A stretch of 64,000 nt of DNA from Kaistella soli (GTDB taxonomy: Bacteria; Bacteroidota; Bacteroidia; Flavobacteriales; Weeksellaceae): positions 1-64,000 of the forward strand of contig NZ_JAHOPF010000005.1 in assembly GCF_019038595.1 (NCBI RefSeq), read 5' to 3'. The translations under genes were made by a program, and so were the position numbers. A model generated the notes under the pieces. It had not been told where the DNA came from. It saw nothing but the letters and a program-made list of their open reading frames with translations, and did not search any database. Positions 3,401-32,868 of this stretch are shown here, piece by piece; positions within the stretch are counted from its first letter, which is position 1; each line of letters starts with the position of its first letter.

Positions 3401-4098
3401 ATCATTTTTCTGACAAGTATAATTTGCCCTTGCTCGTTCTTATATTCAAACACTTCATTTCCATCTTCATCCATTATGGAATTTTTATAGAGTTGATTAG
3501 GGGCAAAATACCCATCCACATATCCAAAGAGCGTCCCAGAACCGTAGTAAAATTTTGCAACATACCTTCTTACCTCCAACTCCCCGTTTGTTAGAAAGCC
3601 AAAATTAATCGAATTTTGAGACCAACTGGTGCCTACGTTAATTTTTTGTGAAATACGATTCAATGGAGAGTTTTCGAAAAATTTTTCCGAGTAGATTTTT
3701 TCTCCCTTATAAACATTTTGTGAATCCGGAACTGGAAATGCTACTATCGGATCACTTTTTGAATTCTGTGGATAGATTCCCCCATCTTTAGATCCTAGTT
3801 GCGGAATGGGAAGGTAATCTAGTTTCTGCCTCCCAAAATCGTCATAAATTATGGGTGTGACTATGTCCTTGCCAGAATAAGAAGCCTTTACATTTACTAT
3901 CTGTTTTGGACGTCCTATACCATCGAAATATTGAACTCCGATTATTGGCAATTTTGGGTTTGTATCGCCGGATGTGGATAAATAACTTTTTGTATAAATA
4001 TAATTCTCGGTTGGTGTTGGTTGTGCCGGTAAAATGCCACACATTAAAAATATTAGGAAAGCCGTAAAAATAACCTTTGTACGATATAATTTTTTCAT
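493..4098 (-). CDS. RHS repeat-associated core protein with variable C-terminal toxin-like region
   Basis: This 1201-aa protein has an N-terminal signal peptide (Lys-rich start, hydrophobic core to about residue 24, then AQPTPTENY). A region typical of Bacteroidota RHS proteins (DUF6443-like: GVQYFDGIGRPKQ) and many YD repeats (YKYDGRGRLVEKK, YDQFGRVV, YDLNGNI) follow. The conserved RHS core spans about 870-982 (DHLGNTRVSYAW, YYPFGM, YGWRSYMPDTGRWMQLDPL, NDPDG). Beyond the core, residues about 983-1201 are variable: a Gly/Ala-rich hydrophobic stretch, an Asn/Ser-rich linker, and a basic end with GPGQSRAEYIRYKN and SYDRANKIQHRKP. In this family the core marks the end of the sugar-free beta shell that encloses a C-terminal toxin. 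The toxin activity here is not identifiable; a nuclease is a guess from basicity. It lies 23 bp after the large protein gene and is followed by a candidate immunity gene. Confidence 0.9.
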   Translation of the reverse strand: MKKLYRTKVIFTAFLIFLMCGILPAQPTPTENYIYTKSYLSTSGDTNPKLPIIGVQYFDGIGRPKQIVNVKASYSGKDIVTPIIYDDFGRQKLDYLPIPQLGSKDGGIYPQNSKSDPIVAFPVPDSQNVYKGEKIYSEKFFENSPLNRISQKINVGTSWSQNSINFGFLTNGELEVRRYVAKFYYGSGTLFGYVDGYFAPNQLYKNSIMDEDGNEVFEYKNEQGQIILVRKMISGTEKADTYYVYNEYNQLSFVVPPLAAVAATISDSSVLNNLCYQYKYDGRGRLVEKKLPGKGWEHMLYDQQDRLVGTQDANLRLADQWLFTKYDQFGRVVYTGLHNDPSDRATLQSSLDSNNSNAKNSESRSTARIANSGIALYYTNTAFPIINAATKLLSVNYYDSYPVGSPLFDNILAQVPAPKLLTENYTTYGNSVRSTKGLPTASFVNNIEANRWTKNYTFYDIEARPIGVYSFNYLGGYTKTESELDFVGVPQKTFTYHKRLDSDAEIKVKERFVYNQYTNALEKHYHQVNTQPEELLANNTYNEIGQLTNKKVGNNIQSIDYAYNIRGWMTGINLDSSGNFQTGKLFNYKINYNNTLQGLANPDPDFSTAIKPRYNGNIAEVLWQKDGDTHINRYGYVYDGLNRLLAGLYQSDLTQTSKEHSERLTYDLNGNIITLKRSAYFMGTAADLIDDLTYKGYVGNKFTSIIDDSHDSNGYEGGGSPINYDNNGNMTDMPDKGIMAIAYNHLNLPKQCDINPDSNTTTLIKTGYRADGVKIKKENITTIGGIRGDLTTVNTTDYLDGFQYLESRKPSDGGGSQGLMGELETEVAMEREAFSPESRAVIAPPGGGSTDNAILQFVPTAEGFYDFVENKYIYQYKDHLGNTRVSYAWNTTTNSIDVLDKNDYYPFGMNHLDPLAGSSFGQGNYKNYKYNGKELQETGMYDYGWRSYMPDTGRWMQLDPLVEDTEDPYAYVYNNPIKLNDPDGRAPEDGVEDGCCSGLKGFGLAVIDNITGGNLAQRYNDGSVSYNNGVQSGNVASAVSGAILTADGTRNITAGGVGLVASAAVSTTGGGTVIGGPGAAVSGSLILKGTAEVIVGASLMSNASKNMQSNKNSSTSSNKSNNSSNNNSKLSKVEKSTTTTTIGKEGKYTKTTEVRPGKGPGQSRAEYIRYKNQDGKVIKNVKDSYDRANKIQHRKPKELPN

Positions 4099-4121
4099 GT
4101 TCTACAAGTTTTTTTTTAAAC

Positions 4122-7100
4122 TTAATTCTTAGTATAAATAAAATTGTTAAGTAGAATGGGAATACCTGTATTTGGAACCACACTTCCATAAATTAAACGC
4201 ACCGTTAAATTCCCCGAAGGATATATCTTAATTTCCCATTGCCTATAAATTGAATCATGAGCTTCAACATATGATAAGGTCTTTAGAGTAGCAGGAATAC
4301 ACGAGTCTTGGATGGTTCCTAAATACACTTCTGTACTCCAGTTTGTTGCAGGTGGATTTAGGGCAATATTACCATAAATCTTGCTGCTTATATTTGTAAA
4401 TGTCCCGGACCAAACACTGAGAGAAGGATTTTTCAAAAATCCACAAGATAAGTTCTCTATGCATTCTCCGAGTTGGTTTGCCATCACTTGTCCATTTAAT
4501 GTAATCTCACCGATTGCTTTCTGATCGGCATCTATCTGACTAATGAACGAAGAATATCTATTTGCAGGCACTGAATATGTAAATTGCCCACCAGTATATC
4601 CAATTCCACAATTGCTTCGAGTAAAAGTTTGTTCTTGAATAGTATTAAAATGTAATAGAGAAGGACTAAGAGAATTAAAATTGTATAGAAATTCCTTTAC
4701 AGGATTTCCATCAGTATCAAGTATGGAACTTAACTTTCCCGAAGCATTGTACGTGTATTTTTCTTTAATCCCATTGGGTTTTATAATATTAGTTATTCCA
4801 ATCAAGGGATCATAAGTGTAAGCAGTAATTTGTGTTTTAGATAATTCTGGTTTCTTTTGAAAATCCATTAATGCATCTAATAATAGCTGTTCAGATTCTA
4901 AAGATGTTAAACCAAAGTATGCTGGGTTATTATCTTTGTTTGATGCATTTATGATTGTATTAATAAAATTATCAGGGATATCAGTTTCTAATCCGCTCCC
5001 TTGTGGAGCATTCGAATCGGGATAGGTTGCACCTTCAACTATTGCAATTGGTAACTTATTGTTGTAGCCCCACACTACTGCGACAGGAATCTTGTTATCC
5101 AAGGCATACTCTTGAAGATTACCGTACTTGTCATATTGGTCGAACCGAGATGTAGTATAAATATTTTGGGGTAAGATAAGCTCGTCTATTGATGTCAAAT
5201 TTAAATGGGTGAAGTTGTTATAATTATAAGTTTGTTTTGAAATTAATGTGTTATTTTTCACCAATTCCTTTGCGAAAATTTTAGAAAAAACATTATTAGT
5301 GAAAAACCTCGGAATTCTACTTGTGTAGAATGTTGTTTCCTTCACAATATCTCCAGATGAACCAAAGGTTGTTTTAGTTTCCGGGTAATTATAACTATTG
5401 TAGTTTGTCGTAACTTTGTTTATTATCACTCCCCCATCAAGATATTCTTTTGTTTCTGAGGAGGAAAGTAAACTTTCTTTATGAAATATTGGGAAGTGAG
5501 CAACAACTGAAAGGTTGATGAAGTGGTTTGGATTAGGATTACCTGCGGGACACGAGCCACCATTTGTGATACAAGTACAAACATATAACCCTTCATTTAT
5601 CATCGATAGTGTAGAACCATAGTAATTTTTTGAGAATCTTTCGATATACTGATTTGTGATTAGCTTCAAGAGTTTGTTGTCTTTGTTATAGATTGACTGC
5701 TCTAATATTTTCCCATTTTCAATTCCAGTACCCTTTACCGAAGGTATATTGACGGGCAGCTGATCATCGAAAAATTTATAAAATTGATCTGGAGTAAAAC
5801 TATACGTTGTAATTGTTTGTCCATTATCTTTATTGCTTTTATCTAATTCAATCCTTCTGACCTTTGTGTAACCTACATAATCTCCTGATGATAGTGGAGA
5901 CGCGCTGTAATTGTTCGTTGCATTCATTGATAAAACGGAAGCATTAAATCCTCCATTTACAGCTCCAGATTCTGTAGTGAAATTATATCGGTAAGTATAC
6001 CTTGTTATTAAATCTAGTGGATTAGTCGAAAATCCACCTTCATAAATTAACTTCGTTGTTCCTAATAAATTATCATTTGAATCGTAATTTTTTTGGGTTT
6101 TAATTCGTAAGCCCTTTCCTTCATTTAGCTTCGGTGAATAGTTCGATACAAATAGATTACTCGCATTGTTTAACTCATATTCAAATACTGAGTATCCTTG
6201 AGTAGGATAAATAATTCTGCTTATGGTGCCAGCGACACAATAGCTGATATCCGCTTTCTTTTTGTTATTATTAAACTGGTTATGAATTGGTAAGTTGTAG
6301 TATTCTGGAAAACCGAAATCAAGTGGATTTAAGAAATAGGTCTTGTTATCAATTCCGCCATTGCTAAATCCCCAATAGTCTACGGCGTAAGAGTTTTTTG
6401 CAGGTAGTTGATTATTTTCGTAATATTCAAAACGATACTGTTCATCTTGGTTGATACTCATGGATCTTAGCTTCAATCTTTTTTTTAGTCTGTTGTCGGG
6501 ATTAGAGGCATAATCCGGAGAAACAAAATAGTCATAGTTAAAGTTAATTGATTTTATACTTTTTGTTTCATCAGTTGAATATACTGAAATGTTGTCGACT
6601 TTTTTTGTGGGAAAATCATCTCTATTGCTATAATTGAACTTCACTTTCCCGAAATTTCCCGAAATTTCTGATATCAGTAAATAATTTTGCTTACTTCCAT
6701 AATTCGGGGTAATAGGGATTCTAAAAGTTCCCTCTGGTCCACTATCAAATGGAAAGCTGGAGTCTGAACGGTTTAGCTTGCCTGTCGCGACATATATATT
6801 ACCCCAGTATGCAGGTATTCCACCACAACTGTTTGTGCTATTTGTTAGACTATAAGTATAATTTAGATTACCAGAAAAAGGAGTTAAATTTATAATGTCC
6901 GTATAATTTTCATACATCAAATTAATAGTATTATTATCTAGATCAACAACTTTTGTTAACAGATAATTACGTGAAATGACACCAAATATCTTAATGGTTT
7001 CAGATTTTGAAAATTCGTAAACTAAACCATCTGGAGCTATAATCTTAAAGAATGAATTATTTTCGTAAGTAATTTTGTAGCCGTTAGCATTTAACGATGT

Positions 7101-7784
7101 AAATTGCCGAACAACTCCTTGCGTTTCAATATCTTTATGGTTTTCAATTATAAATTGCACTTTTTGACCAAATAAGTTTAATGAAAATATGTCTGGCGAC
7201 ACATCATATTGTTGACCAGTGCTATAGTTGTGAAATTGATTATTAACCGGTAAACAATAATTAGACGAGTAATAATAGGCGAATTTATCATTTTGCGGAG
7301 CATGTATATAGCCGGGGGGCTCAGGCATTTCCTTTGACTCAAGATATTTTCCTGAGAAATTGAGTGCTGGCCAAGGAGTATTCTCGTAATGTAAATCAAT
7401 CTTAAGATTCTGATGGTTCTCATCTACATCGAAATCGTCATAACCCATAACAGATTGTGTTATAGTCGGCAATCCTATATTCCAACCTAATCCGACGCTC
7501 CCCGACTCGTCAGCAACTTTTATACCGTTGCCTGAAATATAATCCAGAGATAAAGGAATTTCAATAGCTCCTTCCTTAATATTGTATATTGGTACCTGCG
7601 GTGTATTTGCACCTACAAATTCATTATTTTGGATATCACCATATCTTAAAAATGTTGCAGTCGAGGGCGAATTTGGAAAGTTTTTAAAATAAAACTGCAG
7701 ATTTTCACGGTGTGAAGGAGCTTGCGTTAAACAATGTACAAACACCACCAGAGAAATTAATATTATAATTTTTTTAGCGATCAT
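4122..7784 (-). CDS. Large secreted SpvB/YD-repeat-like protein with DUF5977-like end
   Basis: This 1220-aa exported protein has a hydrophobic signal segment at residues 3-20. The early part (about 25-110) carries the pattern GAIEIPLSLDYISGNGIKV ... SGSVGLGWNIGLP, which recurs in the large proteins encoded beside RHS genes in Bacteroidota and resembles SpvB/TcdB-type beta-propeller or shell starts. The middle has loose YD-like repeats (YDKYGNLQEY, YTYNASGKLSSILDTDGNPV). Near 1050-1110 a DUF5977-like segment is visible (FTRSNCGIGYTGG, then QIDADQKAIGEITLNGQ), followed by a C-terminal beta-rich tail. Its start overlaps the upstream T9SS gene by 4 bp (ATGA), so the two are probably translationally coupled. 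Likely role: surface or secreted partner of the RHS protein. This is inferred from gene order. Confidence 0.8.
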   Translation of the reverse strand: MIAKKIIILISLVVFVHCLTQAPSHRENLQFYFKNFPNSPSTATFLRYGDIQNNEFVGANTPQVPIYNIKEGAIEIPLSLDYISGNGIKVADESGSVGLGWNIGLPTITQSVMGYDDFDVDENHQNLKIDLHYENTPWPALNFSGKYLESKEMPEPPGYIHAPQNDKFAYYYSSNYCLPVNNQFHNYSTGQQYDVSPDIFSLNLFGQKVQFIIENHKDIETQGVVRQFTSLNANGYKITYENNSFFKIIAPDGLVYEFSKSETIKIFGVISRNYLLTKVVDLDNNTINLMYENYTDIINLTPFSGNLNYTYSLTNSTNSCGGIPAYWGNIYVATGKLNRSDSSFPFDSGPEGTFRIPITPNYGSKQNYLLISEISGNFGKVKFNYSNRDDFPTKKVDNISVYSTDETKSIKSINFNYDYFVSPDYASNPDNRLKKRLKLRSMSINQDEQYRFEYYENNQLPAKNSYAVDYWGFSNGGIDNKTYFLNPLDFGFPEYYNLPIHNQFNNNKKKADISYCVAGTISRIIYPTQGYSVFEYELNNASNLFVSNYSPKLNEGKGLRIKTQKNYDSNDNLLGTTKLIYEGGFSTNPLDLITRYTYRYNFTTESGAVNGGFNASVLSMNATNNYSASPLSSGDYVGYTKVRRIELDKSNKDNGQTITTYSFTPDQFYKFFDDQLPVNIPSVKGTGIENGKILEQSIYNKDNKLLKLITNQYIERFSKNYYGSTLSMINEGLYVCTCITNGGSCPAGNPNPNHFINLSVVAHFPIFHKESLLSSSETKEYLDGGVIINKVTTNYNSYNYPETKTTFGSSGDIVKETTFYTSRIPRFFTNNVFSKIFAKELVKNNTLISKQTYNYNNFTHLNLTSIDELILPQNIYTTSRFDQYDKYGNLQEYALDNKIPVAVVWGYNNKLPIAIVEGATYPDSNAPQGSGLETDIPDNFINTIINASNKDNNPAYFGLTSLESEQLLLDALMDFQKKPELSKTQITAYTYDPLIGITNIIKPNGIKEKYTYNASGKLSSILDTDGNPVKEFLYNFNSLSPSLLHFNTIQEQTFTRSNCGIGYTGGQFTYSVPANRYSSFISQIDADQKAIGEITLNGQVMANQLGECIENLSCGFLKNPSLSVWSGTFTNISSKIYGNIALNPPATNWSTEVYLGTIQDSCIPATLKTLSYVEAHDSIYRQWEIKIYPSGNLTVRLIYGSVVPNTGIPILLNNFIYTKN

Positions 7785-9502
7785 TTTTTTATGATTTTTA
7801 CATTAACATTTTTATTCTGCGTTTTAGCAGTGACGATGTACAATCCCTGCAACAAACTGCTAGTATTGATCTTGGTTACTCCTTTTTGAGTTTTCAGGGT
7901 CTGGACCAGTTTTCCGCTCAGGTCGTGTAAGGATATATCCGCCTCGCCCTGAAATTCAAATCCAATTTCCACATAAGCGTAATCCTCGACCGGATTAGGA
8001 TAGATTCTGATCTCCTGTTTTTCGATAAGGTTTTCCAACTCTTTGCTTCCCAGTTTGATGATCTTCCAGTTTTCCTGTCCCAATTCCTCTGCACTTGTTC
8101 CAGCTAACAAAAAATTACCGTCATTCTGCAGTTTTGCAGATACTAGGCGTTCTTCTTTTTTTCTGGATTTCCCTTCCACATGTTTGCGCCATTCCTCTTT
8201 TCCGTTGGTGTCGATGTAAAGCATCCAGAACTTTTCATCATCAGAATGTATTTTTTCTTCTGCCTGTGTATAGCCTCCTATTAAGAACCCTCTATCTTCA
8301 CTTTGGTTATTCTTTCCTGATTTCCGGAATACATCCAGACTCATTGCAATATCGCGGTTTCCAAAACTGTAGTTTTTCTGCCAAAGTTCATTGCCGTCTT
8401 TATCCAGAGAAATGACCCAGATATCTGTTCCTTCTTTGATGTTTTCCTTCTTGTTGCCTGACGAACTGCTGCGGCTTTCTCCGGAGATTAAATATCCTTT
8501 CTCCGTAAATGCAAGGCTTTTGGGCCGGTCATCCCGTGTCCCGCCATAGCTTTTCTGCCACTGAATTCTAGCGTTTTTGTCCAGTTTTACGATCCAGTAA
8601 TCTCCTGCTCCAAAATTATCTTCAGATTTACCCTGAAGCTGAATAGGATCTTGTGCCTGCTGGCTTCCCTGATCCGATGTCTGCTGTAAAGACATCAATA
8701 AATCCGCTGCAAAATTTTGTGTACTTTTAGAATCTGGTTTTTCTGCAGAAGTAGGGTAGTGCTGACCGGCGGGAGAGGTATAAACTTTATTTTCTGTTGT
8801 TCCTGAAGTGGAATAAATCGCAATGAGACTTCCTCCGTCTTCTGTCGGGATCATAGCGGTTACTTCATCCAGACCTTTTCCTCCTAAGACGGTTGTCTGC
8901 ATTAATTTCCCGTCTTTGTTCAGTTTTGAAACAAAGACATCTTTCGACCCAAATAACTGTTTGCTGGAACTGATGTTTCCGGCCACAAAAAATCCCTGAT
9001 CTGCCGCCTGTACTACCGCAGAGGCTTCATCATTGCCAGTGGTGCCCAGTGTCTGCTGCCAGAGTTCTTCTCCATTTTCATCCAGACGAATGATCCATAC
9101 ATCAGAACCTCCTATATTACTTGCCTTTTTTTCACCCGCCTGATTTGAAAAGGAGGTGCCGGCGAGGAGAAAACCGCCTTCCTGAGTAGCAACAGATGAG
9201 ATCAGGTAATCGTGCCTTGTGCCTCCGAAGTATTTGTCCCAAACAGTGTTTCCGTTCTGATCCAGTTTTACAACGTGGTAATCGTAACCTCTGTTCTGTT
9301 GTTGCAGGCCTGTGGCAAGCTGCTTTGGTTTTTGATTGATGGAACTCCCTGCAAGCAGAATCTGCCGGTCTAAGGTGGGAGTCATTGCTGAAAGAAAGTC
9401 CTGAGTGGAGGATTTGAGGTCTTTTTGCCAGACTGTTTTGCTTTCCTGTGCGAAAAACTGGAGGCTAAACAAAAAGAAAACACCGATAGAAATGTTTTTC
9501 AT
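7781..9502 (-). CDS. T9SS type A sorting domain protein with propeller-like repeats
   Basis: This 573-aa secreted protein has a signal peptide (residues 1-18, ending FFAQ). It carries repeated blade-like units in which a Trp-containing strand is followed by GGTRHDYLIS..EGGFLLAGTS, GTTGNDEASAVV, GGKGLDEVTAMI or GGTRDDRPKSLA. The repeats suggest an extracellular beta-propeller. The last ~75 residues (IYPNPVEDYAYVEI ... LHDLSGKLVQT ... GLYIVTAKTQNKNVNVKIIKK) are a classic type A C-terminal domain for export and surface anchoring by the type IX secretion system. It is the first gene of the RHS toxin operon and overlaps the next gene by 4 bp. The context suggests it helps place the toxin complex on the cell surface, but that is inference. 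Confidence 0.9.
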   Translation of the reverse strand: MKNISIGVFFLFSLQFFAQESKTVWQKDLKSSTQDFLSAMTPTLDRQILLAGSSINQKPKQLATGLQQQNRGYDYHVVKLDQNGNTVWDKYFGGTRHDYLISSVATQEGGFLLAGTSFSNQAGEKKASNIGGSDVWIIRLDENGEELWQQTLGTTGNDEASAVVQAADQGFFVAGNISSSKQLFGSKDVFVSKLNKDGKLMQTTVLGGKGLDEVTAMIPTEDGGSLIAIYSTSGTTENKVYTSPAGQHYPTSAEKPDSKSTQNFAADLLMSLQQTSDQGSQQAQDPIQLQGKSEDNFGAGDYWIVKLDKNARIQWQKSYGGTRDDRPKSLAFTEKGYLISGESRSSSSGNKKENIKEGTDIWVISLDKDGNELWQKNYSFGNRDIAMSLDVFRKSGKNNQSEDRGFLIGGYTQAEEKIHSDDEKFWMLYIDTNGKEEWRKHVEGKSRKKEERLVSAKLQNDGNFLLAGTSAEELGQENWKIIKLGSKELENLIEKQEIRIYPNPVEDYAYVEIGFEFQGEADISLHDLSGKLVQTLKTQKGVTKINTSSLLQGLYIVTAKTQNKNVNVKIIKK

Positions 9503-9896
9503 AGGTTGATTTTCAATTCACAAAAAGTAGATAAAAATTGTAACATGAAGAAGATTAAATCACTCCTCTTTATCTTTTCTACGAAAAAAAAATTGAACAG
9601 CAATACACTCCAGACTAATAACAATCTGTGGAATAGATAAATACGAATTAAACAGAAACAGTATTGATATAATTTGTTTTTACGGAACACCTGTTATTTT
9701 TTATAAAGTCCGTATTTCATTAACAAAATTTTATCATTAATTTATCATAATATAGCATCCTTAATTAACAAAATACTGCAACTCTGAACTAGAATTTCCT
9801 GAACCGGCGTTGAAAAGCGTTCAAAGAATCGATAATTGTTATAAATGGAAATTTGCTCAATCAAATAAAATCCTTTTCCCGTAGTAAGTTTTTAAC
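9503..9896. other. Intergenic region upstream of the toxin operon
   Basis: About 390 bases of AT-rich sequence with no convincing gene. It must hold the promoter of the minus-strand operon beginning at 9502, but I could not pick a clear -7/-33 pair. A short inverted repeat (TTGAA/TTCAA) lies near 9815-9830. Confidence 0.5.
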
Positions 9897-10085
9897 TTAA
9901 GATGGGTTTAATTCTGTGATATATCTGGGAGATAAGTTCTTTTGGTTTATCTTCCAAGTCTTCTGAATATCCATGCTTGCCACTTTGATTTTTTCTGTTC
10001 CCAATCTGCGATTCACATACTCCATGACCTGTAATAACCGTTTGTGCTTATCAAAATTATCTATTTCAAATAAGCTGGTCTTTCA
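9897..10085 (-). pseudogene. umuC: Decayed 3' end of umuC (Y-family DNA polymerase V)
   Basis: On the minus strand from 10079 to the stop at 9897-9899 a 60-residue reading frame gives TSLFEIDNFDKHKRL followed by VMEYVNRRLGTEKIKVAS and WKINQKNLSPRYITELNPS. This matches the C-terminal DUF4113-type tail of UmuC proteins (NxRxGxxxIxxAS, W.M.Q..LSPRYTT). Immediately upstream, VPETE is followed by an in-frame TGA where coding sequence would be expected, and other frames are broken. Only the tail of the gene survives. The remainder of umuC is absent, so this is a remnant and not a functional polymerase. Confidence 0.75.
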
Positions 10086-10493
10086 CTCAGTTTCAGGAAC
10101 AAAACTATGTTAGTTTTATATCGGAAGTATGAGAGATAAATATGGTATAAAGGCCTTTAGAGCGGGTTGGGACAGGTCTATTGCCCAATTAATAGAAGGG
10201 TATGCTAGAGTAAGAGTAATTGATTTGCTGTACGCATTTAATCATGCTTAAACCGGTGTCGCATTAATATGCCAAAATTAATGAAACGTTACATTACTTT
10301 TCTACAACAGAAATAGATGCAAAAATATTTTTTTGTAGGTTTTTATCGGAGACTTGCTGTACCCTAGCAACGAATATTATGACAAATATAAGCAATTCAT
10401 AAATCACTGATAATCAACAGCAGTAATTTTGTTTATTACAAACTATTATTACAATTATTGAATAACCAATTGATTATCAATATGTATTTGTGG
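10086..10493. other. Intergenic debris with one weak 40-codon ORF
   Basis: There are about 400 bases here without a recognised gene. A 40-codon plus-strand ORF runs 10129-10251 (starts MRDKYGIKAFRAGWDRS). It resembles no family I know and could be a gene fragment. The rest is AT-rich with no repeat or RNA that I can support. Confidence 0.35.
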
Positions 10494-10508
10494 TCCCTCC
10501 AACTCCAC
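10494..10508 (+). other. ssrA (tmRNA) 3'-end-like sequence, possible attachment-site remnant
   Basis: TCCCTCCAACTCCAC resembles the 3' T-arm/acceptor end of bacterial tmRNA. It is followed within 20 bases by a strong terminator hairpin, as at the end of a real RNA gene. No upstream tmRNA body is visible here, so it would be a duplicated 3' fragment such as an integrated element leaves behind. Similarity is short and judged by eye. Confidence 0.3.
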
Positions 10509-10522
10509 ATCATCTTTAAATA

Positions 10523-10550
10523 ACCACCTGTAAAACCGGTGGTTTTTTTT
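10523..10550 (+). terminator. Rho-independent terminator
   Basis: ACCACC, a short loop and GGTGGT form a stem followed by eight or more T on the plus strand. No plus-strand protein gene precedes it, which fits an RNA gene fragment upstream. Confidence 0.65.
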
Positions 10551-10667
10551 TACCCCTGTTTCTGTTCCCACCTTGTTCTCACATATCAAAGTTTGATAGG
10601 CCCGATCGTGTATAATATTGTGCCTTACTCAACTTTTTATACCCGATAAGGTATATTATATATAATT

Positions 10668-10734
10668 TTCATACCTTGATTTTGTTCAAATAAAATCTTG
10701 ATGATCTGAACTCTGAAAATTTACTGGTTTTCAT
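10668..10734 (-). pseudogene. IS3-family transposase OrfA N-terminal remnant
   Basis: From the ATG at 10734 the minus strand reads MKTSKFSE. After one frame change it continues SQIIKILFEQNQGMK, the start of the helix-turn-helix OrfA of IS3-family elements (typically MKxSKFTExQIxxxLxExxxG). The frame is broken after eight codons and nothing of the DDE transposase follows. It is therefore an IS scar. Confidence 0.65.
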
Positions 10735-10922
10735 AGTCTTCCAAATGTAAAAACTATATTTTCAAATGTTCCTCTTTTTGGGGAAGATTACAGTTTGATG
10801 TCGATATCCAAAACCTGCTCCCATTCCGTAATGAAAATTCGCTCTAAAATTTTAAGTTGCAGATTTTTCCGTTTAAGTAATGGCAGCATAATCTTGATTA
10901 CTTGTTTTTATTAGTATAAATA

Positions 10923-11639
10923 TTAATTCAAAACTATTTTAGAATAATCAAAAAATAGATGAAAAATGGAAAATTGAGAGTTGTCTTTTTTCTTGTGTCC
11001 GGATAAATAACAACCATCAAAACCATTTTTGATTATGTGATTTTCCAGTGCTTTAGTGGTTTCGATAGCAGAATTTGAAGAAAGGTTTTGGTTTATTTTT
11101 TCAGATAGTATTAAATGAGTTAGAGAAGAATTTTCTATAAAACCTAATTGACCTTCAAAAGGCAATCTCAATTTTGTATAATTTCTCTCAGTAAATTTTT
11201 TTGTATCTTTTATATATTCTGCGACAGTAGAGGATGTAAATCTTTTACACTCAATTGCAAAATATGGTTTAGTTGTTTTGCCCCACGAATCTTTTTGCGC
11301 TTTATCTACAATATGGATGTCAATAGGGTCGTTATGCAGTTCATTGTCTACCAAACTAATATATTCCTCAGATACTTCTTTATTGGCTGTAAATCGCTCT
11401 GTTCTGATTTCTAATACACTGAGTTCTTTTTCTAAATAGTCGTCGACTAAACGGTTTCTTAAATAATCTTCTTTTTTTATTTTTCCAATTATCTTTTTTG
11501 ATAAATCATAAGTCACTTTATCTTTGATGATTTTATCATAACTATTAATCACACAAATCAAAATATCTTTAACACGTTTTTGAGTCAAAGATATTTTTTC
11601 TCGTCTGTTTTTAATAAAATTAGAGGCGTTTAAGTTCAT
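10923..11639 (-). CDS. PD-(D/E)XK-type nuclease, partner of DNA methyltransferase
   Basis: This 238-aa cytoplasmic protein has a Lys-rich N-terminal helical half and a nuclease-like centre. Asp107 in NDPIDIHIVD is followed by AIECKRF with Glu130 and Lys132, which gives the D...ExK pattern of restriction-fold endonucleases. Its start overlaps the stop of the upstream methyltransferase gene by 4 bp (11636-11639), so the pair is one translationally coupled cassette. I read it as the restriction subunit of a two-gene restriction-modification system. Target site and subtype cannot be told from sequence. It could alternatively be a helper subunit of a type IIG enzyme. GC content is lower than in the core genes, in line with acquisition by transfer. 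Confidence 0.7.
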   Translation of the reverse strand: MNLNASNFIKNRREKISLTQKRVKDILICVINSYDKIIKDKVTYDLSKKIIGKIKKEDYLRNRLVDDYLEKELSVLEIRTERFTANKEVSEEYISLVDNELHNDPIDIHIVDKAQKDSWGKTTKPYFAIECKRFTSSTVAEYIKDTKKFTERNYTKLRLPFEGQLGFIENSSLTHLILSEKINQNLSSNSAIETTKALENHIIKNGFDGCYLSGHKKKDNSQFSIFHLFFDYSKIVLN

Positions 11640-15168: not shown

Positions 15169-15597
15169 TCACTCCCTCATCACCTTCCTCACCAACTCCT
15201 CAATCACCCTACTCTTCTCCCGTTCCGTTTCCAACAGTCGCTCATACAATCTCCTATTCTCCTCATAGGATTCCAGCAGTTTGTCTAGCGGATTGAATGT
15301 GGGTTGATAAATATCTGTCCTTAAAATCGCGATGCCATTATCATTCGTATTGAAGGTATTCGAAATAATATTAAAAAAAGCATCTTCCGAAAAATTCTTT
15401 AGTGCATCCAGAGGAATTTCTAGAGCTTTGGCAACAGGTTCCAGTTTGGTGTCTTCCAGTTCTTCGGCGTTTTCCAGCTGAGATACTTTTTGCTGGCTTA
15501 CGCCTAAAAGTTCGGCCAGAGTTTCCTGCTTCATACCGCGCATTTCCCTGATTCTTGAGATATTCCTCCCGATATGTTTGTGTGCTGTAGATTCCAT
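15169..15597 (-). CDS. XRE-family helix-turn-helix regulator
   Basis: This 142-aa DNA-binding protein has an N-terminal lambda-Cro/CI-type HTH at about residues 7-62 (IGRNISRIREMRGMKQETLAELLG, VSQQKVSQLENAEELE). The C-terminal third is a highly charged helix (LDKLLESYEENRRLYERLLETEREKSRVIEEL) that probably forms a coiled coil for dimerisation. It diverges from the sigma factor gene at 15743 across a 145-bp gap, so it may regulate both itself and the sigma-dCas12f operon. Proteins of this shape are common free-standing regulators in Flavobacteriia, so a link to the neighbour is inference. It has its own terminator. Confidence 0.85.
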   Translation of the reverse strand: MESTAHKHIGRNISRIREMRGMKQETLAELLGVSQQKVSQLENAEELEDTKLEPVAKALEIPLDALKNFSEDAFFNIISNTFNTNDNGIAILRTDIYQPTFNPLDKLLESYEENRRLYERLLETEREKSRVIEELVRKVMRE

Positions 15598-15742
15598 GGT
15601 AAAAGATTTAAAACAAAGATATAAAATTATTAACCATTATGACAGCCCGGTTTTTTACACCTCTATTTTGTATAATACACCAGACCGTGGTTCGGTACCG
15701 GCGCTTTTATGGCCAACTTGCTGAGCAATGTAGATAAAAACA

Positions 15743-16564
15743 ATGCCTATGAAAAAGACAGACGCTTTGCCCCGAAAGTTGACCGATCATCAGCTATACG
15801 CTTTGCTGAAAAAAGGCAATCCCTCCTCTTTGGAACAGGTTCATCTACGCTACAGAAGATTGCTGTTCTGGCTCGGAAAACAAATGCTTGAAGATGATTT
15901 CGCAGTCGAAACGCTCGTGCAGGATGCCTTCCTTAAACTCTGGCTGCACCGCGCCTCCATTGAAACCCCGGACCATGTGGTCTGCTTTTTAAAGTTGGTT
16001 CTGAAAAGGGATTGCATCTCATACTTTAATGCTCCTAAAAATAAATTCACCCGCTTAACCGCTTCCCTCGAAAGGTTTGAGAATTATCAGGATTATCTTG
16101 CCGGTTATGATCCTCAGCAGGACAAAGAACACCTCCTCACTCACGAATCTGATCAAAAAAAATTGGATGAAGTAAAGAGGGTTTTAAATCTACTGAATCC
16201 CAAAAGAAAACACCTGATTGAGCTTTGCCTTGAATATGGTTTTCACTACAAACCAATCGCAGAAGCAATGGGAAGCAGCGTGACAGGTATAAGCAATGAG
16301 GTGAGCAGAGCCATAGATGATCTCCGGAAAATCCTGAAAGAAAGTTCTTTTGACCAGACTCAGAAAAAAACGCACAGTGATCCCGGTCAGTCAGGTCAGC
16401 TCAGCAGTCAACAGCTCGAAATATTAAAAAGACGGTTTCAGCAGAGATCTTCTTTCACAGTGATTGCCCGCGAACTCCAACTTTCAGAAAAGGAAGTCCA
16501 CCGGGAATTCCTGATGGCCTATCAGCAGCTCCAAAATCAAAATACACCTGAAATAGCTTTTTGA
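15743..16564 (+). CDS. ECF-type RNA polymerase sigma factor linked to dCas12f
   Basis: This 273-aa protein has a sigma70 region-2 domain (about 15-95). Its core LVQDAFLKLW at 58-67 matches the DVFLKLW region that contacts RNA polymerase. A region-4 domain (about 138-197) includes the HTH HYKPIAEAMGSSVTGISNEVSRAI. Typical ECF factors end near residue 190-200. Here an extra ~75 residues follow, with a second helical, HTH-like stretch (SSQQLEILKRRFQQRSSFTVIARELQLSEKEVHREF, about 221-256). There is no anti-sigma factor gene nearby. Instead, the stop codon lies one base before the start of a nuclease-dead Cas12f gene. This indicates coupled synthesis and probably a complex in which the Cas12f-guide chooses the promoter. 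An in-frame ATG at 15749 is an alternative start. Confidence 0.88.
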   Translation: MPMKKTDALPRKLTDHQLYALLKKGNPSSLEQVHLRYRRLLFWLGKQMLEDDFAVETLVQDAFLKLWLHRASIETPDHVVCFLKLVLKRDCISYFNAPKNKFTRLTASLERFENYQDYLAGYDPQQDKEHLLTHESDQKKLDEVKRVLNLLNPKRKHLIELCLEYGFHYKPIAEAMGSSVTGISNEVSRAIDDLRKILKESSFDQTQKKTHSDPGQSGQLSSQQLEILKRRFQQRSSFTVIARELQLSEKEVHREFLMAYQQLQNQNTPEIAF

Positions 16565-16565
16565 G

Positions 16566-17660
16566 ATGGAAAAATCAACCATGACACTAACCAGAAAAAT
16601 TCAGCTGCTGATCGACCTTCCTGCAGCTGAACGGAACGCGATGTGGGAAAAACTCTATCGCTATCAGAACCGCTGTTTCCGGGCGGCAAATTTCATTGTT
16701 TCCCACTTGTACGTACAGGAAATGATCAAGGATTTCTTTTACTTCACTGAAGAAATCCAATATAAGCTCGCCGATGTGAAGAAAGATGAAATGGGATTGT
16801 TTAACCGTTCGAAAACAAACACAACGGCACGCATGGTTTTCGACCGCTTCAGGGGAGAGATCCCAACAGATATTCTGGGAAGCCTGAACAATACAATCCA
16901 GTCCAACTTTTCTAAAGACAGAGCCGACTACTGGCAGGGCTCAAAATCGTTAAGAAACTTTAAAAAAGACCTTCCCATACCGCTTCCGGTGAAATGCGTA
17001 ACCAAAATGCGGTATGATCCTGAAAAGAAAGCCTTTTGTTTTAATATGTTTGCTATTCCGGTGAAGACCTATTTAGGGAAAGATTTCTCTGATAAGCGGC
17101 TGATCATGGAACGGCTTTTAAGAAAAGAGATAAAGCTTTGTACCTCACAGGTCCAGCTGAAAGCCGGGAAAATATATTGGCTCGCCGTATTTGAATTTGA
17201 AAAAGAAAAACATCTGCTAAAACCTGAAATCATCGCAGAAGCTTCCCTGTCTCTGGAACATCCCATCGTAGCAAAAGCCAACAACGTAAGAATCAACATT
17301 GGCTCGAAAGAGGAGTTCTTATACCGCAGGCTGGCAATTCAGGCAGGTCAGAAAAGAATTCAGGCTGGCATCGCCTTCGCCCGTTCCGGACATGGAGCCA
17401 AACGCAAACAAAAGGCACTGTACAAAACAGAAAACCTGGAAAGCCGCTATGTAAGCCACCGGCTACATCTGTACAGCAGGAAGCTGATCGATTTCTGTAT
17501 TCAGCAACAGGCAGGCACATTGATTCTTAAAAATCAGGAGGATAAAATCGGCATTGCAAAAGAACAGGAATTCGTGCTCCGCAACTGGAGTTACTACGAC
17601 CTGCAGACCAAAATAAAATACAAAGCCGAAAAGGCAGGTATTGAACTGATCATCGGATAG
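16566..17660 (+). CDS. Nuclease-dead Cas12f/TnpB-like RNA-guided DNA-binding protein (dCas12f)
   Basis: This 364-aa protein shows clear Cas12f/TnpB likeness at its end: LRNWSYYDLQTKIKYKAEKAGIEL matches the conserved helix before the zinc finger of Cas12f. Catalysis is lost three times over. The RuvC-I strand (about 232-246, HPIVAKANNVRINIGS) has no Asp. The RuvC-II strand reads GTLILKNQED, with Lys322 where the Glu should be. The protein stops at ELIIG, just before the YTSQxCSxCG zinc finger and RuvC-III. The DNA- and RNA-binding front (about 1-225) and the linker helices (250-312) remain. It should therefore bind a guide and DNA without cutting. It starts one base after the ECF sigma gene, and three guide-like RNA modules follow its stop. 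Expected role: RNA-guided recruitment of sigma and RNA polymerase to chosen promoters. An in-frame Met at 16581 is an alternative start. Confidence 0.85.
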   Translation: MEKSTMTLTRKIQLLIDLPAAERNAMWEKLYRYQNRCFRAANFIVSHLYVQEMIKDFFYFTEEIQYKLADVKKDEMGLFNRSKTNTTARMVFDRFRGEIPTDILGSLNNTIQSNFSKDRADYWQGSKSLRNFKKDLPIPLPVKCVTKMRYDPEKKAFCFNMFAIPVKTYLGKDFSDKRLIMERLLRKEIKLCTSQVQLKAGKIYWLAVFEFEKEKHLLKPEIIAEASLSLEHPIVAKANNVRINIGSKEEFLYRRLAIQAGQKRIQAGIAFARSGHGAKRKQKALYKTENLESRYVSHRLHLYSRKLIDFCIQQQAGTLILKNQEDKIGIAKEQEFVLRNWSYYDLQTKIKYKAEKAGIELIIG

Positions 17661-17670
17661 CGGAAAAAAA

Positions 17671-17762
17671 TAACGAGGGTGCTTGTACACCCGCAGGGTG
17701 AGGTCATGAACACTCACTGAATGCTGAAGAGTATATACAACTGAGCGGTTTTCTTTTTGATG
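17671..17762 (+). ncRNA. Guide RNA module 1 (71-nt scaffold plus guide)
   Basis: The scaffold is 17671-17741, starting 10 bases after the dCas12f stop. It has three hairpins: GGGTG/CACCC (677-681/688-692), GTGAG/CTCAC (698-702/713-717), and ATGCT-GAAG-AGTAT (721-734). It ends in ATACAAC. The variable part begins at 17742 with TGAGCGGTTTTC and runs into T-rich sequence. The order scaffold-then-guide and the CAAC junction fit Cas12f/TnpB guide RNAs. The 3' end and guide length are inferred. Confidence 0.7.
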
Positions 17763-17828
17763 CAACAAAGGCAAGAATATGAATGTTTATTTCAGTTCAC
17801 CCGCTGTGGATAGGAAACAGATTAAAAA

Positions 17829-17920
17829 TAATGAGGGTGTTTGTACACCCGCAGGGTGAGGTCTTGAACACTCACTGAATACCCAAAGGTATATACAACG
17901 GGGCGGTTTTCTTTTTTTGC
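17829..17920 (+). ncRNA. Guide RNA module 2
   Basis: The scaffold is 17829-17899, the same length (71 nt) as module 1 with about ten substitutions. The third hairpin is ATACC-CAAA-GGTAT. Relative to module 1, one pair changes from U-A to C-G and another from G-U to A-U, so pairing is kept while sequence changes. The guide starts at 17900 with GGGGCGGTTTTC and then a long T-run. Homology to module 1 continues ~35 nt past the scaffold. Confidence 0.7.
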
Positions 17921-17942
17921 TATAAAGGCAGAATTTAGAATA

Positions 17943-18051
17943 GGCGTTGCAAAAGAAGAGGAATTTGTGCATCTCAACTGGAATTACTGCGACCTGCCGA
18001 CCAAATAAAACACAAAGCAGAAACGCGGCTATCGAACTGATCATCGGGTAA
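17943..18051 (+). pseudogene. Decayed duplicate of the dCas12f gene 3' end
   Basis: These 109 bases align with the last 111 bases of the dCas12f gene (17550-17660). Shared blocks include GCAAAAGAA.AGGAATT, CAACTGGA.TTACT.CGACCTGC and GAACTGATCATCGG, and it ends in a stop. Two single-base losses break the frame. It directly precedes guide module 3 just as the intact gene precedes module 1. The gene tail plus module was therefore copied as a unit. Confidence 0.85.
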
Positions 18052-18060
18052 TTAAAAAAA

Positions 18061-18152
18061 TAATGAGGGTGCTTGTACACCCGTAGGGTGAGGTCATGAA
18101 CACTCACTGAATACCCAAAGGTATATACAACGGCGTGGGCTCATTTTTTTCT
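18061..18152 (+). ncRNA. Guide RNA module 3
   Basis: The scaffold is 18061-18131 (71 nt), nearly identical to module 2, with the same ATACC-CAAA-GGTAT third hairpin and ATACAAC end. The guide begins at 18132 with GGCGTGGGCTCATTTTTTTC and differs from guides 1 and 2. A 6-bp inverted repeat GGCTCA/TGAGCC (18138-18143/18159-18164) spans the guide and the sequence after it. Confidence 0.68.
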
Positions 18153-28549: not shown

Positions 28550-29974
28550 TTAGTAACCAGGATTTTGAATAACATTAGGATTGGTCTGTATCTCAGACAA
28601 TGGTATTGGCCAAACAAATTTATAATTGTCGGCTTCCGCAACAAATGTATTGCCGTTTTGCCCGCTTTTGTCTACTTTCTTATGATTTCTCTTAAGGTCG
28701 GTAAGCCTATGTCCTTCCAAAAAGAACTCAAATCCTTTCTGTCTTAAGATCTCATCCAGCAACGCCTGACCGGAAACAGCCGGAACTGTGTAAGCGGCAT
28801 CTCTGTATTCTCTTACCCAACTTTGTAAACCTGCAGCAGCCTGTGCCGGATTTAGATGGTAGTTTGCCTCGAACAAAATAAATTCAGCTTCTGTTTTTCT
28901 GAACAGAACGACATCTTTAGCTGGCGAAGTGTATTTCCTAACATCAATAGGTTTTGGAGTATCAGTCAAATTGTTCACAAACCCGCTTGAAGTATACCAG
29001 AATGTTTTTCTTGCGTCAGTTATTGGAAATGTATCCCAGAAACTTCTTCTCATCCAGTTCTGTTTATAAGTTCCGGCGGACGACCATGTTCCAGAAATGG
29101 CATCGTTAGCACCGATATTCACATTCGGTGATTCATAAATCTGAAATAAAGTTTCGTTGGTGTCATCATCACCTAAAAAATAAGACGAAAGTTTATTTTT
29201 TGGAAGTAGAGGAGTAGGTCCGCTCAGAGCTTCGTTTGCATACTGAATTGCCATTGGATAATTCTTCATGTAAAGATAAACCCGTGCAGTCAGCAACTGT
29301 GATGCTTCTGAATTAAACTTATTTTTTCCGTAACTGAAGCCTGGGTCAAAATTTGCATTTGCGATATTCAGATCGTTGATAATGGCATTATATACCTGAC
29401 TTACGGTAGATCTTGGTAATTTCTGAGTGATGTCGAAAGTAGTGGGATACGGAACGCCGAGAGATTGATCTCCTTCACCGTAATTAGGTGCAAAATACGC
29501 CATTAACACAGAATAACTATAAGCTCTTACTGCGTGCGCATGTGCAAATAAATCAGCAACAGGCGCTGTACCATTTTCGTCCTCAGGAATTTGACCTTCG
29601 TAGCCTAAGATAAAATTTGCATTCGCGATGATATTATAAAGACTGTTCCACAACCCGTCGCTTACACCATCAGCCGGACTGATATGTCCCCATCCGTTTG
29701 TCTGAGTAAAACGGCCGGAATTTACAGCACCTACAAATGCCAGATCACCTGTCAGCTCCTGATAAGTTTGGTGATTGGATCCGAAAGCAGCAGCTGAATT
29801 CATTGTGGCATACAATCCGTTAACAGCAACGGCAAGGTCGGTTTTCGTTTTTAAAGCCCCTGTAGGCGTAATAATAGTAGCGCTGGGCGGCAAATCGGTA
29901 AGGAAGCTGTCCGAGCATGAAGTTAATGCGGATACTGTAACAGTAGTTGCAATAAAAATATTTTTGAATTTCAT
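28550..29974 (-). CDS. SusD/RagB nutrient-binding outer-membrane lipoprotein (locus A)
   Basis: This 474-aa lipoprotein has a signal ending in the lipobox LTSC (Cys20). SusD proteins sit on the outer face of the outer membrane and hand ligands to the SusC channel. Family marks: SDSFLTDLPPSATI near the N-terminus, helical TPR-like segments (AHAVRAYSYSVLMAYFAPNYGE, LLTARVYLYMKNYPMAIQYANEAL), and the C-terminal EILRQKGFEFFLEGHRLTDLKR with KFVWPIPLSEIQTNPNVIQNPGY. It is encoded 17 bp after its SusC partner. The ligand is unknown, and no glycoside hydrolase or peptidase is adjacent. Confidence 0.95.
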   Translation of the reverse strand: MKFKNIFIATTVTVSALTSCSDSFLTDLPPSATIITPTGALKTKTDLAVAVNGLYATMNSAAAFGSNHQTYQELTGDLAFVGAVNSGRFTQTNGWGHISPADGVSDGLWNSLYNIIANANFILGYEGQIPEDENGTAPVADLFAHAHAVRAYSYSVLMAYFAPNYGEGDQSLGVPYPTTFDITQKLPRSTVSQVYNAIINDLNIANANFDPGFSYGKNKFNSEASQLLTARVYLYMKNYPMAIQYANEALSGPTPLLPKNKLSSYFLGDDDTNETLFQIYESPNVNIGANDAISGTWSSAGTYKQNWMRRSFWDTFPITDARKTFWYTSSGFVNNLTDTPKPIDVRKYTSPAKDVVLFRKTEAEFILFEANYHLNPAQAAAGLQSWVREYRDAAYTVPAVSGQALLDEILRQKGFEFFLEGHRLTDLKRNHKKVDKSGQNGNTFVAEADNYKFVWPIPLSEIQTNPNVIQNPGY

Positions 29975-29991
29975 TTTTCTAATTTGTTTAG

Positions 29992-32835
29992 TTAAAAATC
30001 AATCGTAATTCCAAATAGATACTGTTTCATATTTGGCTGGGTTTGATCATATACTCCCATTCCTCCGATAGTTCCCATTGTATTGGAATTCGCTTCAGGA
30101 TCGAAAGGCAGGTTTTTATCAAATGCATAGGTCCAGAGATTTACGCCTCGGGCATACACATAAAGTCCTTTTGGGCCACTTTCGCCCAATATCGATTTTG
30201 GCAGTCTGTAGCCTAATTCCAAGCTTTTCATTCTTATGTGGTCTCCTTTATAAAGATATCTTGTTGAATGCAGCCTCGTAGCTGTATTACCAGGAATAAA
30301 CTTAGGTCGGTCAGAAGTAGGATTATCTGGTGTCCAGCTGTTTAAAGCATCAGCAACCTGTACCCCCTGAATATCCTGTCCATCATTATTGAAGTATCTC
30401 TGCCATAAATCATATACATAGTAATCTCCCATGTAAGTAAATAAGAACGAAAGCGTTAAATTTTTATAGGTGAAATTATTTGTTAAACCAGCAGTATGTG
30501 TTGGTAATGCATTTTTACCGGTCATCATTCTCAGGGCCTTTGAAGTACTATTAGTGGTTTCGGTTTGTGCTTCGTTAGTATACCATAACGCATCTCCATT
30601 TGAATGATCCACTCCCGCATACGAATATAAATACCATTCGGTAGGGTTATGATCTACAAGAAAATGCTTTGCGAAAGATCTGTCAACAAAGGGACTCAAT
30701 AATTTTGTGATCTTGGAATCGTTGTAGGAATAATTTCCTGTTAAAGACCATTTAAAATTTTCCGTGTTAAAAATATCAGCACTTAGTGTAGTTTCAATTC
30801 CTTTCGAAACTGAAGATACAGCGTTACCTAATAATGTAGGGAATCCTGTTGAACCGGGGTTCGGCACATCACTGGTCAGCTGATTTACGACGTCATTCTT
30901 ATACCAGTCAACAGAGATACGATATCTGTTACTGCTGAAGCCTAAATCTACACCGAAATTCAGTTTTTTCGAATTCTCCCAACCTAAATCCTGATTACCA
31001 GGAGATATACTGTTTCCTGATTCTTCAAGATAAGTGTTTGGCGTTAAACGGTTATATTTTCTGTAGAGGAATGCATCCCCTCCTGTATTTCCAACTTCTC
31101 CATAACTTCCCCGTACCTGAAAGTTTTGAAACCAGTTTGAAATATTTCCAAAGTTATGCAGATTCACATTCGCACCCGCAGCCCAGAAATTACCGTATTT
31201 GATATTATCCCCAAAATGCGAATATCCATCACGTCGGAAAGAGCCAGTAACATTAAATAAGTTTTTGTAGCCATAAGATGCTCTGGCGATATATCCTATA
31301 AGATGCCATTCCGTATAGTCGGAATTCCCGTCTGCGATATTGGCCGCATTGGCCAAAGTATTCTGATCCCAGTGTCCTGAAAGATAACCCTGTCTGATGA
31401 CAAAAGTATTTTTATCTTGTCTGTTTGTAGCTTCAGCACCTGCAGAAATATTAATGTCATGATCGTCATCTTCTCCTAACTTGACACTGTAGTGAACTAA
31501 ATTAGACCAGTTCCACGTAGAGTAGCTGAAATCTGTTTTTATACCGTTTCCATCTCCCAATGGGTCCTGCGCATTCACACCATCAGCAAAATCGGGATTT
31601 TGCCATTCGAATTCGTCGTAATAATTGTAATCAATCCCAATATTGGACGAGAATCTGAAATTTCTTGCGAAATTATAATCTACTCCTAAGGATGATAAAA
31701 TCTTGGTAAAAGTTGATTTCCTCTTATTTACATCCTGAATCCCCACTAAATTAAAATCGGTCCCGATTCCGGAGATTAAACTTAAATTATAAGAGCCGTC
31801 AGGATTATAAATAGGCTGTGTCCCATTGATAAATCTTGCGCCTAAGATAGGGTTTTGAAAATATCCATAATCAAGCGGTCCCTTTTGATTTGCTCTTGAT
31901 AACATGTTAGACATTTGTACTGTCAATACATCAGACATTTTCCACGTGCCTTTCAAAGTGGCATTTAACCTGTTATATGCGGCATCTCTGGCAATACCCT
32001 GTTGGTCTGTATAACCTAATGATGCATATATATTGGCAACTTCATTACCGCCGGAATAGTTAATTGCATTCCGGTTGTATGAAGGAGCTGAATTTCTGGT
32101 AGCTTTCTGCCAGTTTTCATTAGTAACGCCATCCCAATTATAAAAGGATTTTGCTTTATCACTTGCTGCAGCTTGGCTGAAGCCTTGGTTGACGTAGCCA
32201 AGGGTAAGAAGCTTCACCATACCGGGCCCATCCAGTAGGTCATACTTTTCATAAGCTTCAGTTCCAGCTCCTACCTCAGAGTTAAAACTAAATTTGCCGC
32301 CTTTCTTTCCAGACTTCGTTTTAATAACGATAACACCTGCAGCACCTCGGGATCCATACAAAGAGGTAGTTACACCATCTTTCAAAACCTCAATAGACTC
32401 AATATCCGCCGGATTTATCATGGCCAGCGCGTTGGAAGTGGTTGCAATACCCGCCGCATCACCGGTAAGCACAGGAACACCGTCTACAATATATAATGGT
32501 TGAGTATTACCCGATAAACTGCTGATACCACGAATCAAAACCCGTGCATTTGAGCCTGGCTGCCCACTGTTAGAATTAATGACAACACCTGATGCCTGGC
32601 CGGCAATTGCTAAATCCAATGAAACAGCGTTCGGTTTTTCCAGAACTTTTGAAGTAATTAAAGAATAGGAACCTACTTTCTGTTCCTGAGACTCTTTAAT
32701 ACCATAAGATCCTAAGACTACTACTTCTTCAATGTCTCTTGTTTTGGTAGCCGTGTCTTTTTTTGCTTGAGCCATTAACGTATGTCCCGCAAAGAACAGT
32801 ACCCCAATACTTAAAACTCGTAATTTTCCATTCAT
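29992..32835 (-). CDS. SusC/RagA TonB-dependent outer-membrane transporter (locus A)
   Basis: This 947-aa protein forms the TonB-dependent barrel that imports ligand captured by SusD. I place the start at 32835 (MNGKLRVLSIGVLFFAGHTLMAQ). That gives a normal signal peptide and mirrors the start of the second SusC in the window; an ATG 30 bp upstream is less likely. After the TonB-box-like IEEVVVLGSYG come the plug domain (ARVLIRGISSLSGNTQPLYIVDGVP, DIESIEVLKDGVTTSLYGSRGAAGVIVIKTKSGKKG) and the barrel ending QYLFGITIDF. The N-terminal carboxypeptidase-like extension of many SusC proteins is absent, as it is in the paralogue at 34679. Confidence 0.95.
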   Translation of the reverse strand: MNGKLRVLSIGVLFFAGHTLMAQAKKDTATKTRDIEEVVVLGSYGIKESQEQKVGSYSLITSKVLEKPNAVSLDLAIAGQASGVVINSNSGQPGSNARVLIRGISSLSGNTQPLYIVDGVPVLTGDAAGIATTSNALAMINPADIESIEVLKDGVTTSLYGSRGAAGVIVIKTKSGKKGGKFSFNSEVGAGTEAYEKYDLLDGPGMVKLLTLGYVNQGFSQAAASDKAKSFYNWDGVTNENWQKATRNSAPSYNRNAINYSGGNEVANIYASLGYTDQQGIARDAAYNRLNATLKGTWKMSDVLTVQMSNMLSRANQKGPLDYGYFQNPILGARFINGTQPIYNPDGSYNLSLISGIGTDFNLVGIQDVNKRKSTFTKILSSLGVDYNFARNFRFSSNIGIDYNYYDEFEWQNPDFADGVNAQDPLGDGNGIKTDFSYSTWNWSNLVHYSVKLGEDDDHDINISAGAEATNRQDKNTFVIRQGYLSGHWDQNTLANAANIADGNSDYTEWHLIGYIARASYGYKNLFNVTGSFRRDGYSHFGDNIKYGNFWAAGANVNLHNFGNISNWFQNFQVRGSYGEVGNTGGDAFLYRKYNRLTPNTYLEESGNSISPGNQDLGWENSKKLNFGVDLGFSSNRYRISVDWYKNDVVNQLTSDVPNPGSTGFPTLLGNAVSSVSKGIETTLSADIFNTENFKWSLTGNYSYNDSKITKLLSPFVDRSFAKHFLVDHNPTEWYLYSYAGVDHSNGDALWYTNEAQTETTNSTSKALRMMTGKNALPTHTAGLTNNFTYKNLTLSFLFTYMGDYYVYDLWQRYFNNDGQDIQGVQVADALNSWTPDNPTSDRPKFIPGNTATRLHSTRYLYKGDHIRMKSLELGYRLPKSILGESGPKGLYVYARGVNLWTYAFDKNLPFDPEANSNTMGTIGGMGVYDQTQPNMKQYLFGITIDF

Positions 32836-32868
32836 ATTAACACTATTTAATATTTTAATGGGCAAATA

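Follow-up and report, generated by a model that had tools for sequence, protein, structure and literature searches.

A nuclease-dead Cas12f–sigma factor locus in Kaistella soli and the leader RNA probably addressed by one of its guides

The first 64,000 nucleotides of contig NZ_JAHOPF010000005.1 of Kaistella soli (assembly GCF_019038595.1), hereafter the window, carry a gene for an extracytoplasmic function (ECF) sigma factor, sigmaE, followed by a gene for a nuclease-dead Cas12f homologue (dCas12f) and three guide RNA (gRNA) modules (Table 1). The comparisons described here support the assignment of this locus to the dCas12f-sigmaE kind of RNA-guided transcription system, which is already known; what is new is the probable target of one of its guides, namely one arm (arm B) of a structured leader RNA that recurs in many related genomes. 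We consider it rather probable that the locus is an RNA-guided transcription activator whose third guide targets arm B and places initiation so as to bypass an attenuator, all of its functions being deduced from sequence. The primary study of dCas12f-sigmaE reportedly found RNA-guided initiation without promoter motifs, downstream of the R-loop, with a 5′-G as the target-adjacent motif (TAM).

The guide of gRNA 3 begins with the 11-mer GGCGTGGGCTC, which occurs at two places in the 3.1-Mb genome of K. soli, gRNA 3 itself and a leader on C17, and nowhere when the sequence is reversed as a control. Guide and C17 leader are identical over 12 contiguous bases. At this target, the guide corresponds to the non-template strand, a G stands just 5′ of GCGTGGGCTC and the genes lie 3′: on the same strand, a TlpA-like gene (L171:7000-8298) is followed by a SusC gene (8337-11516). 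In terms of sequence, guide 3 has a 5′-G-flanked DNA match in front of a gene; no such place was found for guides 1 and 2. A second leader of the same genome, on C12, has GGCGTGGGCGCTC; this copy (L172:5449-5584) lies upstream of a small open reading frame (ORF) that looks receiver-domain-like by reading, in a possible mobile region.

Relatives of the locus were taken as the best 80 of 91 loci found in GTDB genomes, giving 81 loci with the window. In many of these relatives GGCGTGGGCTC recurs upstream of the sigma gene, within the structured element that we call the leader RNA. A covariance model places a leader upstream of sigma in 58 of the 80 relatives, the matches in L049 and L074 being weak, and the distance from leader end to sigma start is 51-250 bp in 56 of the 58 (median 95), with exceptions at 364 bp (L040) and 966 bp (L073). 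Arm B reads exactly GGCGTGGGCTC in 40 of 55 sigma-linked leaders and in 28 of 34 other aligned copies.

Two mutually exclusive folds are conserved in this element. Across 47 leaders, 93.7% of cells are paired in fold 1 (helices P0-P4, with arm A paired to arm B) and 14 of its 32 pairs show double changes; the figures for fold 2 (arm B paired to arm C, then a T-run) are 95.4% and 6 of 14. None of 500 shuffles reaches the observed values for cells paired, for pairs and cells with double changes or for the covariation score; for further pair types the observed values are reached by 164 and 1 of 500 shuffles, and slid controls are at most 39.7% and 56.3% paired. One of the sequences served as the basis for writing the folds, a choice that works in their favour for that sequence. 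Some changes fit both folds at once, such as GGTGTGG in B matched by CCACACC in C (L059 and L062), and the hairpin from B to C has a folding energy of -25.8 to -36.5 kcal/mol in five leaders. Arms A and C are rivals for pairing with B, an attenuator-like arrangement in which the B:C fold is predicted to be terminator-like. In Rfam 15 the leader finds no match, with L005 and L103 examined at the gathering score, and the region L005:4850-5190, searched down to E 10, returned two snoRNA chance matches only; a literature search likewise brought up nothing recognized as this leader. The family is presented as a candidate new regulatory RNA of Bacteroidota.

The match of guide and leader extends to the relatives. 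A guide start (G)GCGTGGG, here termed B-type, is present in 65 of the 104 gRNAs counted in the window and the 80 relatives, one per locus in 65 of the 81 loci, and it stands together with a leader upstream of sigma in 48 of the 80 relatives. An aligned leader accompanies a B-type guide in 45 loci; in 33 of these the two match at the first seven positions, and in 13 at ten or more in a row. The guides of L064 and L065 agree with arm B of their own leader at 15 of 16 positions. L080 has no leader at its own locus; its guide agrees, at 17 of its first 18 positions, with a leader that precedes a SusC-like gene elsewhere in its genome. Of 58 Chryseobacterium-type loci, the window among them, 57 have identical guide positions 1-8 in their last module, and variation occurs at positions 9, 11 and 12, as expected of a TAM-proximal seed.

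The two proteins are well placed by homology. The sigma factor scores above the Pfam cut-offs for regions 2 and 4 and matches the RpoE chain 9n9q_C over residues 19-264 (E 9e-75), and dCas12f matches the PDB entries named 'Nuclease-deactivated Cas12f' (9n9c, 9n9m, 9n9o and 9n9q) over residues 1-364 (E 7e-160). The titles of 9n9c and 9n9m are 'dCas12f-gRNA complex' and 'dCas12f-gRNA-DNA complex (partial R-Loop)', and both dCas12f and RpoE are present in the single entry 9n9q; the 9n9c sequence, compared by eye, equals the protein of L058, from Allomuricauda taeanensis. Family models match less strongly, with NCBIfam guided_TnpB at E 5e-14, under its curated cut-off, and Pfam Cas12f1-like_TNB at E 0.1 at best. 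Aligned to the active Cas12f chains 9nzr and 9nzo, the window protein has Ser227 at the RuvC-I Asp position and Lys322 at the RuvC-II Glu position, and the alignment stops about 92 residues short of their end; the zinc finger and RuvC-III end are missing. Over 24 aligned rows (the window and 23 relatives), the RuvC-I Asp is absent from all and the RuvC-II position is occupied by K, L, M or I. The reading frame runs to 364-366 codons before the first stop in 73 of the 80 relatives; it is interrupted in five (L053, L055, L069, L072 and L075), and outlying lengths are found in L030 (378 codons) and L080 (354 codons, its match beginning at residue 12). An AlphaFold model was poor (mean pLDDT 65.5, pTM 0.45; TM 0.49 and root mean square deviation 16 to 9n9m), and no support was drawn from it.

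An earlier note on this DNA, made from the letters alone, had proposed an ECF sigma gene ending one base before a Cas12f-like gene, a loss of the RuvC-I Asp, a lysine at the RuvC-II Glu, a stop before the zinc finger and RuvC-III, and three structured, guide-like RNA modules downstream, and had taken the whole for a dCas12f-sigma system. The observations are confirmed and the interpretation is supported; a target was not among the note's proposals. The coordinates agree, with a single base between the stop of the sigma ORF and the ATG of the Cas12f-like ORF, both on the plus strand; the alignments to active Cas12f reveal no overlooked intact RuvC triad; each module scores 93-95 bits with a covariance model (built partly from these copies) whose scaffold helices carry double changes; and both proteins match the solved dCas12f and RpoE over nearly their whole length, with the gRNAs adjoining. 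An active type V-F CRISPR-Cas12f was ruled out, the RuvC catalytic residues not being intact. The gene order is widely kept: with a limit set at 1.2 kb, the sigma gene lies upstream of dCas12f in 79 of the 80 relatives, with the one-base gap in 63 of these 79, and in the remaining relative (L070) it lies about 0.5 kb upstream.

Table 1. Features of the dCas12f-sigmaE locus and its surroundings in the window
Feature	Position	Strand	Evidence or remark
Divergent XRE-type helix-turn-helix (HTH) gene	15169-15597	-	Pfam HTH_3
Intergenic region upstream of sigma	15598-15742		Leader RNA not found here
ECF sigma factor (sigmaE), 273 aa	15743-16564	+	Pfam PF04542, PF08281 and PF04545 above cut-off; PDB 9n9q_C RpoE
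Nuclease-dead Cas12f homologue, 364 aa	16566-17660	+	PDB 9n9c, E 7e-160; alignments
gRNA module 1	17671-17758 (scaffold 17671-17741)	+	Covariance model 95.0 bits; guide TGAGCGGTTTTC..., drawn to T-run
gRNA module 2	17829-17918 (scaffold 17829-17899)	+	Covariance model 93.1 bits; guide GGGGCGGTTTTC...
Duplicated dCas12f 3′ end plus gRNA	17936-18131	+	84% identical to 17543-17741
gRNA module 3	18061-18152 (scaffold 18061-18131)	+	Guide GGCGTGGGCTC at 18132-18142, then T-run

The gRNAs form a family. Over 99 distinct sequences, 97.9% of the cells in the scaffold helices are paired, and 4 of 17 pairs show double changes. A search of the K. soli genome with stricter filters returned the three gRNAs of the window and no further ones, and at least one gRNA is present in all 45 genomes of the family with a dCas12f match, two of which (G069 and G119) hold only a dCas12f fragment; at least one gRNA (G133:C5:9496) stands without an adjoining dCas12f match. 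The recurrence of the dCas12f 3′ end together with its gRNA (Table 1) indicates that the array in the window grew by segmental duplication. Guides 1 and 2, as GAGCGGTTTTC (17743-17753) and GGGCGGTTTTC (17901-17911), were each found again in two out of three genomes of relatives (L244-L246), and given this recurrence both may matter. In the same three genomes the guide GAGCTCCTCAC is found in two and GAGCGCCTTTC in one. A second guide family, similar to CCTTCCCCTAAAGATTAAAGGAACTGG, is common to Salegentibacter and Gramella loci and partly shared by a Leeuwenhoekiella locus (L073, L078, L079 and L082). Two related genomes (L261-L263) have the guide AGCTCACTTATCGTT or GGCTTACTTATCGTT, a sequence like that of leader arm B but offset by about 6 nt; none of the few leaders inspected from these genomes matched exactly.

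Both genes and the loss of the catalytic residues are observed, as are the gRNA family, the guide–leader match and the two conserved folds, and they lend themselves to the following mechanism, in which we infer the assembly of the ribonucleoprotein, DNA binding, initiation, and termination with its bypass. dCas12f would bind a gRNA from the downstream modules, and the complex would recognize guide-matched DNA next to a 5′-G and bring in sigmaE and RNA polymerase, transcription starting a short way downstream. Guide 3 would target arm B of the gene for the two-state leader RNA, here the C17 leader upstream of the TlpA-SusC operon, and initiation downstream of arm B would bypass the attenuator, since a transcript begun there lacks B and the B:C terminator could not form, whatever the exact distance. 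In the 48 relatives with both the guide and a sigma-linked leader, the sigmaE-dCas12f operon could also drive itself in a positive loop.

The leader is more widespread than dCas12f. It is present in 127 of 197 genomes of the family, of which 45 have dCas12f matches, and in 42 of these 45 genomes against 85 of the 152 others (Fisher p 9e-7, with kinship ignored and the difference partly due to the linked copy), as well as in 14 of the 14 genomes examined of more distant dCas12f loci. A profile search for dCas12f in 79 of the 85 leader-positive, dCas12f-negative genomes gave no match, a result that shows little as the search had no known positive. That the leader occurs without dCas12f makes it seem that the guide fitted itself to the leader and not the reverse. 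To describe what the leaders precede, 42 copies away from dCas12f were inspected, 40 picked from the listed matches plus the two of K. soli. For 39 of the 42, three families account for the first same-strand ORF (at least 140 aa, within 2.5 kb): SusC-size receptors (13), a TlpA-like thioredoxin of about 430 aa (12) and a family of mostly about 180 aa (14). Representatives scanned matched SusC/RagA TIGR04056 and thioredoxin PF00085; the two members scanned of the third family (L193:4548-5078 and L206:4629-5165) had no Pfam or NCBIfam match. A minus-strand ORF of at least 80 aa ends no more than 500 bp upstream of 37 of the 42 copies and looks HTH-like in many by reading.

Several observations weigh against an activator that acts through arm B. 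Between the end of the C17 leader and the start of TlpA lie 1.56 kb, and the window locus lacks a leader, the covariance model matching the K. soli genome only on C17 and C12. Neither guide 1 nor guide 2 has a convincing target in that genome, and the B-type guide is absent in 16 of the 81 loci. Mismatches within the first seven positions occur in 12 of the 45 guide–leader pairs (e.g. L010, L022 and L062), which slightly lowers our confidence. The guide of A. taeanensis, used as a positive control, found only the gRNA itself when searched as a 14-mer with up to one mismatch, and as a 13-mer plus TAM it gave six one-mismatch places, the gRNA included, versus nine for the reversed control. Arm B also keeps its sequence where dCas12f is absent from the genome, and its maintenance is therefore not due to dCas12f; nor is arm B seen to be better conserved in dCas12f-bearing genomes, where it is exact in 9 of 14 other copies, versus 19 of 20 elsewhere. 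Two candidate targets were set aside: guide 1 at C14:115995 (one mismatch over 17 nt) falls within an apparent terminator hairpin of the preceding gene and was not counted, and GRGCGGTTTTC has nine non-self places in the K. soli genome on both strands, versus five for the reversed control, none of them convincingly intergenic beside a 5′-G.

The same match could be put to a different use if the dCas12f-gRNA complex were a roadblock or repressor at the leader and sigmaE acted elsewhere. There is precedent in TldR, nuclease-dead TnpB-like proteins that a passage of PMC13418256 presents as RNA-guided transcription factors repressing a gene. In every one of the 80 relatives, however, the sigma gene lies upstream of dCas12f, nearly always directly, and a single PDB entry contains both the RpoE and the dCas12f matched here, which makes repression an unlikely role. 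It is also improbable that the gRNA acts on RNA, pairing with arm C of the nascent leader and blocking the B:C terminator in a trans antitermination for which dCas12f is a mere carrier: arm C is indeed complementary to the guide (duplex of -16.9 to -23.3 kcal/mol in five leaders) and a T-run follows it, yet the guide equals DNA arm B without a bulge whereas one base is bulged when it pairs with arm C, the relative of solved structure binds DNA (9n9m), a constant guide start beside a 5′-G in the leader fits DNA targeting, and no role would be left for sigmaE. Little probability attaches, lastly, to a match by descent, the gRNA 3′ end having been copied from a leader and kept as terminator or scaffold part, for although genera differ little in the B-type sequence, which runs into a T-run in the Chryseobacterium-type clade, other sequences (a few being near-variants) stand there in 39 of the 104 modules and in L064, L065 and L080 the match continues along arm B in place of the T-run.

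The RNA-guided activator proposed here compares most closely with the dCas12f-sigmaE of Allomuricauda/Flagellimonas taeanensis (9n9c, 9n9m, 9n9o and 9n9q), which has the same two genes in the same order and a gRNA directly downstream, and whose dCas12f is about 64% identical, likewise nuclease-dead and truncated at the C-terminus. The A. taeanensis locus (L058) has one gRNA in a 13-kb stretch, with guide TTGTGGGATATACG, whereas the window has three, the last with GGCGTGGGCTC; L058 also has the same leader RNA as other relatives, unlike the window locus. With TldR the system shares the use of a nuclease-dead TnpB/Cas12 lineage as an RNA-guided transcription factor, going by that passage of PMC13418256, and differs in that TldR is described there as a repressor, while here a sigma factor in the operon leads one to expect activation. 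Active Cas12f proteins (Al3Cas12f 9nzr/9nzo; AsCas12f 7wju/8j12) are homologous over roughly 250-280 residues, the window homologue lacking the catalytic residues and the C-terminal part. Attenuators and riboswitch leaders have in common with this leader the mutually exclusive antiterminator-like and terminator-like folds; here, by contrast, the middle arm doubles as guide match, the terminator is a predicted one and Rfam 15 holds no match.

On a wider scale, we see about an even chance that RNA-guided sigma factors throughout Bacteroidota share the leader as a landing site, such that one guide would address every matching leader, whether upstream of SusC, TlpA or unnamed operons or, often, of the regulator's own, and initiation past arm B would escape the terminator and switch a whole surface-nutrient gene set. 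That the B-type guides are directed at a single conserved leader element and not at unrelated promoters suggests a purpose for many natural RNA-guided activators, and candidate regulons could become predictable from genome sequence. RNA-guided initiation would be linked to attenuator bypass, and positive self-control is suggested in the relatives with a leader beside the sigma gene.

Elsewhere in the window, ORF reading places two SusC/SusD-like gene pairs at 28550-37549; considered as targets, these SusC genes have no guide matches upstream, and no leader lies in the window. Two long ORFs at 493-7784, of 1201 and 1220 aa, are YD-repeat/Rhs-type by look.

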